Assembly: GCA_949710005.1 (NCBI GenBank)
Contig: OX453273.1
Span: 2,065,322 to 2,129,321, forward strand
Reading direction: 5' to 3'
DNA from: Ricordea florida
Lineage: Eukaryota > Cnidaria > Anthozoa > Corallimorpharia > Ricordeidae
DNA length: 64,000 nt
Position numbers and translations under genes: made by a program. Shown piece after piece: positions 2,985 through 63,931 of the stretch. The first letter of the stretch is position 1; each line of letters opens with the position of its first letter. Below the pieces are notes generated by a model that worked only from the letters and a program-made list of their open reading frames with translations, did not search any database and was not told the origin of the DNA.

Positions 2985-3145
2985 CTACCCCCACCCCCCG
3001 GAGGGAGCATTAGAGAAATCTTCTACCAAGATCAGGAAAAAAAAATTCGTGCAGAGGGGTTCACCTGAAAAAAAAATTCCTGCACAAGCAGTGAGCGAAA
3101 AAAAAAATTCGTGCAAGCTGAAAATTCCCCCCCCCCCCCCCATCA
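2985..3145. repeat. Degenerate repeat with poly-A and poly-C tracts
   Basis: Three imperfect copies of an A-run followed by ATTC(G/C)TGCA lie at 3038-3115, followed by a run of about 15 C at 3128-3143. The pattern looks like a piece of a dispersed repeat rather than gene sequence; I cannot assign a family. Confidence 0.5.
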
Positions 3146-29769: not shown

Positions 29770-31894
29770 CCCTAAAACCACCAAGTTTTTTTTTAGACTT
29801 TTTACAAGGAATTTTTAAAAAATCGTCAAAAATTAAGTTTTTAGGCGTTTTGTTTGAAATTTTCTGTATTGACAGCTAAGAGATTGATCTTTCAAAAAAT
29901 GAGGTTAGAAATATTATGGCCCCCGAAGTTTTCGTACCACTCAGAGAAATACAGCCAAATAGAACTGAGATTTTCCCTGAATTTTGACTTTCAAGAGCGG
30001 TATTGCCGTTAAATGAAAGCGGGAGCCTGGTAAACTAGTGCCCAGGGTATCCTCAACTCACTAGCTTCAAAATGGCGGCTAATTACGACAGTGGTGAAAG
30101 TGATGAAGAAAATGTGCTAGATGAACTCCTGCAGCCTGATAATGGGGAAAGTTATGACGATGAGGAATCAAACTATCCTGAGTGGACACTTCAGCGCCTG
30201 AAAGAAGAGCTGAATCGAAGAAATCTTTCGAAAACAGGTCGAAAACAAGAGCTGATCAATCGACTGATTGAACACGATGAAGGTGGAGCTGTGATGTGGT
30301 CAGACGAAGAAATTGAAGTGGAAGACCTTCCTGCTTTTCGGAAACATCCTGGCCCAACATTTGTTTTTGGCGAAGGAGAAAATGCCGGAGATATATTTTC
30401 TCGCTTTTTTACACCGGATATCGTTGATGTTTTGGTTACTGAAACCAACCGCTATGCACATCAAAAGGGGGCTGTCAATTGGGTTGCCACTTCTGCTGAA
30501 GAAATAAGAGCATTTCTGGGAGTATCAATTTGGATGGGTCTGAAACAAGTACCAGACCTTTACGATTACTGGTCGAACAGTACAGTTCTGTCGGTTGATG
30601 GTATAAAACGTGTTTTCCCCAGGAAAAGGTATGAGGAGTTGCTCCATAATTTACGTTGTGCTGACAATGCTTCTTCTATCCCTGCTGGCCAGCCCGGTCA
30701 TGACAAAATTTACAAAATTCGAAAGGTTGTGACTATTCTCAACAGAAATTTTCAGAAAAACTGGACACCACATCAGCAAAACGGTGTAGATGAGGGGATG
30801 ATTCCATTCAAAGGTAGAATTGGTTTCAAGCAATATATGAAGGACAAACCTACCAAGTGGGGTATAAAGGTTTGGAAACTTGTGGACTCGGTAATGGCCT
30901 ACCTTCTTCACTTCAGTATTTATACCGGGAAAACTGACAACCCAGGAGCAAATCTTGGAGAGAGAGTTGTCCTTGATCTTTGCTCTTCACTTCCAAGGGG
31001 TATTCCCTGGAAACTGTACTTTGATAACTTTTATACTAGTTTATCTTTAGCAATTTCACTACTTGAGCGAGGTATCTTCTGTACTGGCACAACCAGACCC
31101 AACCGGGTGGGGTTCCCTCGTCAACTTCAGACAGCACGACTCAAAACTGGAGAGAGCAAGTGGATGATGGAGGAGCCAAGGCTTTTTGCACTGAAGTGGA
31201 AGGATACAAAGGATGTGTATGTGCTGTCTTCCATGGCAAAGCCAGGGGTAGAAGATGTCCGAAGAAGAGAGAAAGGTCAACCAGAAGGGGTTGTCAAGCG
31301 GTGTCCTTCCATGGTGGTGGACTACCGCAAGTATATGGGTGGAGTGGATACAAATGATCAACATCTTTCATATTACAAATGTTCCAGAAAGTCCAGCAAA
31401 TGGTGGATGCCTGTCTTTATGCAGATGTTAGACATGGCAATTGTCAATGCTTGGATTTGTGAATGTTTTATCAGGGGAAGTGATAAGTCGAGAAAGCAGA
31501 AAGTATTCAGAGATGAGCTTGTAGTCTCTCTTTGTGGAAAGTTCACAATGAGAAAAAAGAGTGGAAGACCTTCTGAACTCCAAGGACCAAGGTTTGACAA
31601 GGCAGAACACTGGCCCAAGAAAAGAGAGCAAAGAGGTTACTGTGCTTGTGGCTGTGGAAGTCGTGGCCGTATTTACTGTGGAAAGTGTGATGTACCTCTC
31701 ACTGTAGAGTGCTTTGAACTTTGGCATACTACTGCCTAACTGAGGGATTTCAAAGGTTATTCTAACCCAAAACTATTGTTACAAGGTTATTTTCATTATA
31801 GAAACAGTTTTAGAGACATTTTAGAAGTTCTTTTCATTCTCAGGACCATGTAAATATCTTGACGGACCATATGGTCCATTTGGTGGTTTTAGGG
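29770..31894 (+). mobile_element. Complete piggyBac transposon
   Basis: The element is bounded by TTAA at 29766-29769 and TTAA at 31895-31898. Immediately inside are perfect 15-bp terminal inverted repeats, CCCTAAAACCACCAA (29770-29784) and TTGGTGGTTTTAGGG (31880-31894). The interior holds one uninterrupted transposase frame. TTAA duplications, CCC-starting TIRs and a DDD transposase define the piggyBac superfamily. The right end has a subterminal palindrome GGACCATATGGTCC (31863-31876). Total 2,125 bp with no visible decay. Confidence 0.93.
30072..31739 (+). CDS. piggyBac transposase with N-terminal SAP domain
   Basis: An uninterrupted 555-residue frame. Residues 1-35 are acidic. Residues 38-68 (WTLQRLKEELNRRNLSKTGR and onward) form a SAP helix-extended-helix DNA-binding motif, unusual on piggyBac. 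The DDE_Tnp_1_7 core follows, with the expected acidic triad at D240 (VDEGMIPFKGR), D318 (FDNFYTS) and D426 (GGVDTNDQ). The C-terminus is cysteine-rich (GYCACGCGSRGRIYCGKC), the position of the piggyBac C-terminal zinc-binding domain that recognises the ends. It cuts and pastes DNA at TTAA without leaving a scar. The full triad, open frame and intact ends suggest the element may be recent and possibly active. Confidence 0.93.
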   Translation: MAANYDSGESDEENVLDELLQPDNGESYDDEESNYPEWTLQRLKEELNRRNLSKTGRKQELINRLIEHDEGGAVMWSDEEIEVEDLPAFRKHPGPTFVFGEGENAGDIFSRFFTPDIVDVLVTETNRYAHQKGAVNWVATSAEEIRAFLGVSIWMGLKQVPDLYDYWSNSTVLSVDGIKRVFPRKRYEELLHNLRCADNASSIPAGQPGHDKIYKIRKVVTILNRNFQKNWTPHQQNGVDEGMIPFKGRIGFKQYMKDKPTKWGIKVWKLVDSVMAYLLHFSIYTGKTDNPGANLGERVVLDLCSSLPRGIPWKLYFDNFYTSLSLAISLLERGIFCTGTTRPNRVGFPRQLQTARLKTGESKWMMEEPRLFALKWKDTKDVYVLSSMAKPGVEDVRRREKGQPEGVVKRCPSMVVDYRKYMGGVDTNDQHLSYYKCSRKSSKWWMPVFMQMLDMAIVNAWICECFIRGSDKSRKQKVFRDELVVSLCGKFTMRKKSGRPSELQGPRFDKAEHWPKKREQRGYCACGCGSRGRIYCGKCDVPLTVECFELWHTTA

Positions 31895-37008: not shown

Positions 37009-37046
<38 letters not shown>

Positions 37047-37143
37047 TGTAAAAGTTGATTAATCGTAAAACAGTGCTCAATACGTGAACGTAGAGCGAAG
37101 TAGTTGTTGCGGGAGAAAAAAACACACAAACAAACTACAGGTT

Positions 37144-37188
37144 TATCCCTACAAGCCTGTTTCGTGGTTGCCCACTCATCAGGGGATA
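37144..37188 (-). ncRNA. Hammerhead ribozyme, type I, minimal (minus strand)
   Basis: Mirror image of the plus-strand motif and identical in sequence, read from 37188 down to 37144, with the predicted cut after position 37150. Its first stem overlaps the plus-strand ribozyme by two bases at the palindrome centre. Confidence 0.8.
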
Positions 37189-37231
37189 TCCCCTGATGAG
37201 TGGGCAACCACGAAACAGGCTTGTAGGGATA
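37187..37231 (+). ncRNA. Hammerhead ribozyme, type I, minimal (plus strand)
   Basis: All core elements are present in order: stem I strand TATCCC (37187-37192), CTGATGA (37193-37199), stem II GTGG-GCAA-CCAC (37200-37211), GAA (37212-37214), a 3-bp stem III ACA-GGCT-TGT (37215-37224), unpaired A17 (37225), then GGGATA (37226-37231), which closes stem I. Cleavage would fall after 37225 (TGTA|GGG). A short stem III is typical of the hammerheads of Penelope elements and animal retrozymes. Activity is inferred from the fold. In a full-length transcript the long hairpin would compete with ribozyme folding. Confidence 0.82.
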
Positions 37232-37603
37232 AACCTGTAGTTTGTTTGTGTGTTTTTTTCTCCCGCAACAACTATATATATATATATATATGAGCGAATA
37301 CTACTCAGTTTCCTCTTTGGATTCAACGTGTTCAGTACCGTTCTGTATGTCCTGTGCTGATAACTGAATCTTAAATCCGAAAAATAGATAACACTCAAGG
37401 ATCGTTTTATGAGATATAGAGTTTTACAAACGCTAAGGTGATTGTGTTATCGAAATGTATATTTGTTTTCGTAAGGTTCCTCATTTTAAGGGGATCAACC
37501 AACTCTAAACAAGATTCCTTAGAAGACTTAGAATGTCATTAGTCTGTTTCACTGGCTTGGCACTCAGCTACTAAAAGGCAAGAACAAATAAACAATCATT
37601 TAA

Positions 37604-38281: not shown

Positions 38282-62632
<24,351 letters not shown>

Positions 62633-63002: not shown

Positions 63003-63931
63003 GGTGAAAATGAAGAACAGCTCCCAGAATAACCTGTCGGCCGACTGTCAGCCGACTGTCGGCCAACTGTCGGCCGACAAGCGGCCGACAGTTGGCCGAC
63101 AAACGGCCAACAGTCGGCCGACAGTTGGCCGACAGAATTTGTGCATATGAACGTTAACTTGTTGGCCGACTGTCGGCCGGCAGTCAGTAACATGTCGGTG
63201 ATCTGTCGGTAGGCTGTTGGTGAGCTGTCGGTAAGTTGTCGGTAAGCTGTCAGTAAGTTGTCGGTCAAATTTATCGTAAACAAATGCGTATTCAAAGTTT
63301 TCAACAAATAAGACTTGGATCCAAAATTAACTCAGGAAGGATACTTTACTTCTCAGAACAATCTCTTTCAATGATTTGGTTAGTGGAACATCACTTCAAT
63401 GCATTTCCTCGAACACGGTAATGTTCAGCAAACATGTCGCCATATTGATTTTTTAAGTTAGGTCCCAGCCCCCTGTTTCAAGTTTCCCACTCCCCGGTCT
63501 TTTTTGCAAATGGCTTCGGAGTGTTAGGGGAAAGAAACGCAACTTTACTGTTTTATCAATAGCAAAGATTTCATTAATGATCATTGACTTTTGCAAACTT
63601 GGTGGCTCCTAAAGGAGCCGTTGTTTTTGAACATCACTGTTCAGTCGTAGAAACGCTCATCAAACTTTAATGGCAACAGTTTGCCCTCCTGCCGCATATC
63701 TGCTATAACAGGCAAATGCCGCTTCAAACGCCTCCTGCACGCCGCCTCTAACTCTCTTACGGAACCGCTTCTAACCGCTTATATCTGTTGAAAGCCATCA
63801 CAGATATAACGATTTTACCACTGTAAGGTATCTGTCGGCCAACTGTCGGTGACCTGTTGGTAGACTGTCAGTAATGTGTCGGCCAACAGTTGGCCGACAG
63901 GTTATTCTGGAAGCTGTTCTTCACTTTCACC
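63003..63931. mobile_element. 929-bp MITE with 8-bp TSD (hAT-like)
   Basis: The duplication GTCTACCT lies at 62995-63002 and 63932-63939. Terminal repeats GGTGAA(A/G)(A/G)TGAAGAACAGC and CCAGAATAACCTGTCGG match at both ends in inverted orientation. Subterminal zones are packed with TGTCGGCCGAC/TGTTGGCC direct and inverted subrepeats, as in hAT elements that present many transposase-binding sites. No transposase frame is present. Confidence 0.82.

Follow-up and report, generated by a model that had tools for sequence, protein, structure and literature searches.

Several features of the structures described here are already known from Penelope-like elements (PLEs): head-to-head pLTRs, palindromic junctions, optional tails and pLTR hammerheads. 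For the endonuclease-containing Penelope elements of Adineta vaga, the accessible text describes head-to-head pLTRs with palindromic junctions and pLTR pairs that usually bound an ORF or captured DNA, and a word search of the paper gives 0 mentions of 'hammerhead ribozyme' (PMC3846280). The protein of the Poseidon element PAc of Anolis cuts both target strands and extends each of them, begins at the internal sites that bound the tail and takes unprocessed RNA as template; the hammerhead of this element cleaved only with protein present, and the accessible part of the main text does not describe palindromic products (PMC11167929). Metazoan retrozymes, as the available part of their description has it, are direct tandem repeats with canonical type I hammerheads, and minimal PLE-type hammerheads have been noted in a coral (PMC7229834).

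We analysed a stretch of 64,000 nt of Ricordea florida DNA, hereafter the window, in which an initial annotation had singled out a palindrome with a hammerhead on each strand. Compared with what is accessible on A. vaga, the commonest tight form here has two ORF-less arms, each bearing a hammerhead motif, that meet at the inferred 5' end of the RNA. As in PAc, the hammerhead lies at the pLTR-ORF border and the tail lies between internal starts of reverse transcription, and both target strands would be cleaved and extended with uncleaved RNA as the main template. Unlike PAc in vitro, where the start site did not differ between strands (PMC11167929), paired arms here nearly always use different start sites. 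Small repeats with a type I hammerhead are shared with the metazoan retrozymes, but here they form inverted pairs of minimal hammerheads, as far as the retrozyme text at hand allows the comparison (PMC7229834). The initial annotation described hammerhead retroelements as carrying direct tandem copies; this is too narrow, given the inverted head-to-head pLTRs with palindromic junctions in the accessible account of Penelope (PMC3846280) and the hammerhead between pLTR and ORF in a PLE (PMC11167929).

Anatomy of two palindromes and their hammerhead motifs

Positions 37101-37274 of the window form a perfect palindrome of 87+87 bp, with 0 nt between arms that are 100% complementary, as had been annotated. 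A strict descriptor of type I hammerheads (stem I of at least 5 bp, CUGANGA, stem II of at least 4 bp, GAAA, stem III of at least 3 bp, UH) also recovers the motif annotated on each strand, the 2-bp overlap of the two motifs and the annotated cut positions. A second palindrome lies at 55 kb. The features of both loci are as follows.

37012..37043, no strand: (TA)n on the tail side, presumed target
37043..37100, minus strand: PLE 'tail' of 58 nt, extending the left arm only and lying outside the coordinates annotated initially
37101..37187, minus strand (antisense on the plus strand): left arm, putative PLE 5'-terminal segment, perfect complement of the right arm
37144..37188, minus strand: minimal type I hammerhead motif by descriptor, predicted cut 37150/37149
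37187..37231, plus strand: minimal type I hammerhead motif by descriptor, predicted cut 37225/37226
37188..37274, plus strand: right arm, with the 'no-tail' 3' end AACAACTA followed directly by (TA)n
37273..37291, no strand: (TA)n on the no-tail side, presumed target
53971..55035, no strand: PLE2, a second PLE family adjoining the 55-kb copy, with inverted terminal segments at 53971-54020 and 54986-55035
54005-54406: GIY-YIG ORF fragment inside PLE2
55128..55185, minus strand: tail of the second copy, by arm mapping
55186..55341, no strand: second head-to-head palindrome, both arms identical
55220..55264, minus strand: hammerhead motif of the second copy, predicted cut 55226/55225
55263..55307, plus strand: hammerhead motif of the second copy, predicted cut 55301/55302

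A deletion common to both arms at 55 kb is absent from the rest of the assembly. TA repeats on either side make the TSDs of both window copies unreadable. The sequence GAGCGAA, which flanks the 37-kb palindrome, was considered as a TSD and dropped, as its left copy sits within the tail. Both ends of the neighbouring PLE2 carry hammerhead-like cores (CTGATGAAGGTC...GACCGAAA) with one extra A relative to the usual core, and its truncation point is marked by a fold-back palindrome at 54028-54073 (23 nt, 96%). Elsewhere in the window, an ORF of 566 aa (30039-31739, plus strand) encodes a SAP domain followed by a piggyBac-type transposase domain (PF13843), and about 236 copies of the trinucleotide TAC (51720-52427) produce long open frames in several frames.

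Each strand of the 37-kb palindrome encodes stem I (UAUCCC/GGGAUA), CUGAUGA, stem II (GUGG-GCAA-CCAC), GAA and a cut site after GUA, with a stem III of three pairs (ACA/UGU) and the loop GGCU. The descriptor finds four motifs in the window, two at 37 kb and two at 55 kb, and none in 100 dinucleotide shuffles. The initial annotation would have given up the ribozyme if a covariance model had no hit, and indeed none of the Rfam hammerhead models matches at gathering score: the best, Hammerhead_3, scores 19.5 bits (E 0.2) where 48.5 are required, and the type I model RF00163 is absent from the Rfam matches at E≤5. We thus speak of a hammerhead motif by descriptor and claim no Rfam membership. A search of eight loci with Rfam, including two with other hammerhead-like families, gave no matches. 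Further hammerhead-like cores are a third family with core CTGATGAGTGCGTAAGCACGAAAC, seen as a tight head-to-head pair at L060 2819-2854 (the same place as L061), and a fourth core at L068 near 1626. The only match at gathering level in the window is a histone 3' UTR stem-loop (63580-63624, minus strand), as would suit the genome of an animal.

Stems I and II form in the predicted fold of the isolated 47-nt motif. For the complete arm RNA of 89 nt, a competing fold has a lower predicted energy than the hammerhead, and self-cleavage of the arms is a prediction from the motif. For stem I, we make no claim of covariation support: at one pair, the double variant occurs once and the single variants 9 and 5 times, so that the single variants outnumber the double. 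At L043, a paired change of C to T and G to A keeps a stem I pair in the plus arm only of the pair at 3034; this may be due to chance, since single-side variants are commoner genome-wide.

Abundance, ends and source of the arms

We searched the assembly (537.8 Mb, 48 contigs) and found 1086 exact occurrences of the 25-nt ribozyme core, and none of the reversed control. The impression of a singular structure does not hold: 17-nt cores separated by at most 30 nt form head-to-head pairs at 176 places, and the exact 48-bp centre of the 37-kb palindrome occurs at 92. Of the neighbour pairs formed by the first 100 cores of C1, 17 lie within 120 bp, and every one of these is head-to-head and none direct, while direct orientation is found in 12 of the 26 neighbour pairs at 121-3000 bp. 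The direct tandem repeats that characterise retrozymes are thus seen neither at the window copies nor among C1 neighbours within 120 bp. The head-to-head pair itself is repeated in a tandem array at L042 (2882-3750), whose seven exact cores alternate in orientation and which looks like a local duplication.

The arms have two fixed outer ends, 58 nt apart and beside TA-rich DNA. Genome-wide, the no-tail end forms 615 exact junctions with TATATA and the tail end has 807 exact starts (reversed-pattern controls 0). Of 56 tail ends examined, 49 run on into sequence resembling [AC]TTTATATA. Local pairs nearly always combine the two ends: among the 25 with typed ends, a set that excludes L017 and L060 as lacking a scoreable arm end, 24 have one tail and one no-tail end, and L014 has two tails. 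With independent choice of ends, at least 24 of 25 would be expected with P ~5e-7, a value to be read knowing that several of the 25 pairs are mutual duplicates. A looser list of 28 pairs at most 2.4 kb apart includes 24 tail/no-tail, one tail/tail, one no-tail/no-tail (1388 nt apart, the only such pair of the list) and two untyped. The 22 pairs of C1, typed from those listed rows near them that were picked by eye (52 of 100 tail rows and 20 of 100 no-tail rows), comprise 12 tail/no-tail, five tail/untyped, three no-tail/untyped and two untyped, with no equal ends. One solo copy (L006/L007) begins with ATCCCC, ends with AACAACT and has the 12-bp duplication ATAAGTTAATAT on both sides. This is direct evidence for the insertion of a single arm alone.

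The inner end of the arms is equally sharp and lies at ATATCCCC, just upstream of the ribozyme. We counted distinct 160-nt contexts, merging identical arms at different loci: of 110 contexts, 30 are long and 80 short, and in 59 of the short ones the end lies no more than 2 nt from the first A of ATATCCCC. Fifty of the 176 pair junctions were listed; 25 of these are the seamless GGGGATATCCCC and 25 differ, with small losses, fillers or zigzags. At least one arm reaches the first A in 41 of the 50. Long copies have TATATAAG 31 nt upstream of this A, and CCATATCC around it fits the initiator consensus. We infer that ATATCCCC is the start site of the PLE RNA, which would put the ribozyme at the extreme 5' end of the transcript, and each arm would be a 5'-terminal piece of this RNA.

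A 300-nt stretch taken from the long copy L022 was mapped onto 40 loci and onto the window. Long copies (L022, L037, L009 and others) extend upstream into an ORF that stops just before the pLTR segment. The ORF of L022 aligns with that of L028, from a neighbouring family (E=1e-9, 22% identity), whose GIY-YIG domain is Pfam-positive, and the source of the arms, PLE1, is therefore filed as a Penelope-like element. The support for this assignment is good but indirect. Three of three PLE1 ORF pieces have no Pfam match at E≤0.01, and four more have weak or no matches at E≤1; the PLE1 ORF has 0 matches among PDB sequences, and NCBIfam gave nothing above cut-off for three ORFs. The PLE1 ORF contains what we take, by eye, to be a YRDD-type RT motif. 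Two PLE traits are present, the head-to-head pLTR palindromic junction (176 places) and the optional tail on one inverted pLTR (24 of 25 pairs). A full-length copy with a 5' pLTR-tail-ORF order was not found among the loci examined.

Probable two-sided insertion and competing explanations

The palindrome is probably a two-sided PLE1 insertion, in which each target strand primed reverse transcription of an uncleaved PLE RNA. Both strands of a TA-rich target would be cut, and from each of them reverse transcription would be primed at one or other of the two internal starts in the 5' pLTR region. Both cDNAs would pass through the uncleaved ribozyme up to the RNA 5' end, where their 3' ends (...GGGGATAT) would join, in about half of the cases via the self-complementary ATAT, to give a seamless palindrome. 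Two-strand target-primed reverse transcription, for which PAc provides a biochemical precedent (PMC11167929), explains why the outer ends are fixed but differ, why the inner end is shared and how the chimeras described below arise. Twin priming of LINEs similarly involves two target strands that each prime cDNA and give inverted copies. LINEs start at the poly(A) 3' end, whereas PLE1 pairs have two fixed internal start sites instead.

The templates used seem to be mostly uncleaved because arms usually span the whole ribozyme. At 41 places (at most 30 nt between parts), one arm stops inside it. Only 3 of these stops are exactly at the predicted cut, while about 9, counted by eye, are within 1 nt of CGTGG in stem II; 4 of the 41 places belong to one tandem array on C15. 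We therefore rejected cleaved RNA as the main template, the more so as the three stops at the cut are explicable by the shared TATCCC. Since the templates are mostly uncleaved, any role of the ribozyme would lie elsewhere in the life cycle.

A self-primed origin, in which a cDNA or antisense transcript folds back and the second arm is copied from the first, has a precedent in the self-priming on an antisense template proposed for rotifer Penelopes in the accessible part of PMC3846280. It would account for the unusual similarity of the arms of one pair, including the genome-unique deletion shared by the 55-kb arms, and fold-back palindromes do occur at PLE truncation points (54028-54073 and the centre of L033); zigzag junctions are seen in L012 and L026. 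Yet a loop of zero nucleotides is impossible for one strand and half of the listed junctions are seamless, copying of an arm would not produce two different outer stops in 24 of 25 pairs, and junctions between two PLE families require two templates. We thus consider self-priming unlikely as the general explanation. Of the alternatives proposed in the initial annotation, a replication product is the one that fits best; a lone dead snap-back does not, as 176 pairs share fixed outer ends. The identical 48-bp centre at 92 places might instead suggest that the whole palindrome is a mobile unit amplified from one founder. We find this improbable: the centres vary, with 25 of the 50 listed junctions unlike the perfect one, solo and long copies have the same end points, and the RNA of the palindrome, predicted to form a hairpin of -167 kcal/mol, would probably be a poor template.

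An arrangement with a function of its own, either a processing switch or a source of retrozyme-like circular RNA, is more doubtful still. The motifs are intact on both strands, and cnidarian type I hammerhead retrozymes make circRNAs according to the text available to us (PMC7229834). Against this, retrozymes are direct tandem repeats and close neighbours among the first 100 cores of C1 are exclusively head-to-head, and the variants of stem I lend it no covariation support. For the switch that had been suggested we found no evidence: at -167.1 kcal/mol, the predicted hairpin of the full palindrome is far more stable than the hammerhead fold (-14.6), and the ribozymes present in the inserted DNA are uncleaved. 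Among assembly artefacts, long perfect palindromes form a known class, and the initial annotation had envisaged that the palindrome might derive in this way from one arm. The outer ends of the two arms differ and varied junctions occur at 176 places, which contradicts an artefact and leaves it a negligible probability.

Within the two-sided insertion, we asked how many RNAs are involved. At L021, a PLE2 terminal segment, also present in the window at 53988-54024, is joined to a PLE1 arm, both at their 5' ends. A pattern search gave three further PLE2-PLE1 junctions, including C6:34456636 and C12:19343291, one of the three being ambiguous (TA filler). These chimeras imply that two RNAs can be joined. 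On the other hand, arms are closer within pairs than between loci (edit distance 1.4 vs 2.66; 0 of 20000 permutations), which together with the deletion unique to the 55-kb locus points to a single template, or to copying from arm to arm, more than to two independent RNAs. In 23 pairs, a set without the 37-kb pair of the window (identical contexts merged), 15 private substitutions are in one arm only and 1 is in both, so that the arms are not simply held identical by conversion. The similarity may come from one RNA read twice, from arm-to-arm copying at some loci or from a shared source locus.

A more specific version, which we put forward tentatively and hold to be possible rather than probable, involves a PLE dimer. 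Both RTs would copy one RNA, from the no-tail site and from the tail site 58 nt downstream, using one target strand each, and the trailing enzyme would displace the first cDNA. The two identical cDNA 3' ends could then anneal via AUAU at the capped 5' end of the RNA and close the insertion, so that second-strand synthesis need not be a step of its own; chimeras would result where two RNAs are occasionally used. If true, such a scheme would account for the single tail per pair, the close resemblance of paired arms and the deletion common to both arms at 55 kb.

Novelty and meaning for Penelope-like elements

What looks new relative to described PLEs is that two ribozymes come together in a form without an ORF, that pairs follow a one-tail rule almost strictly and that the junction lies at the 5' end. 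In the accessible part of the literature searched, which lay mostly outside subscription papers, we found neither an ORF-less head-to-head hammerhead pair nor a per-pair count of tails nor a junction at the RNA 5' end. The finding bears on how PLEs, the sister group of telomerase, complete their insertion, for which a self-priming proposal stands beside a purified enzyme that extends both strands. The 176 tight natural junctions, of which 50 are listed, have two outer ends each and make the self-priming, two-RNA and one-RNA models separable by counting. That most inserted templates seem to have had an uncut hammerhead narrows the possible roles of the ribozyme.
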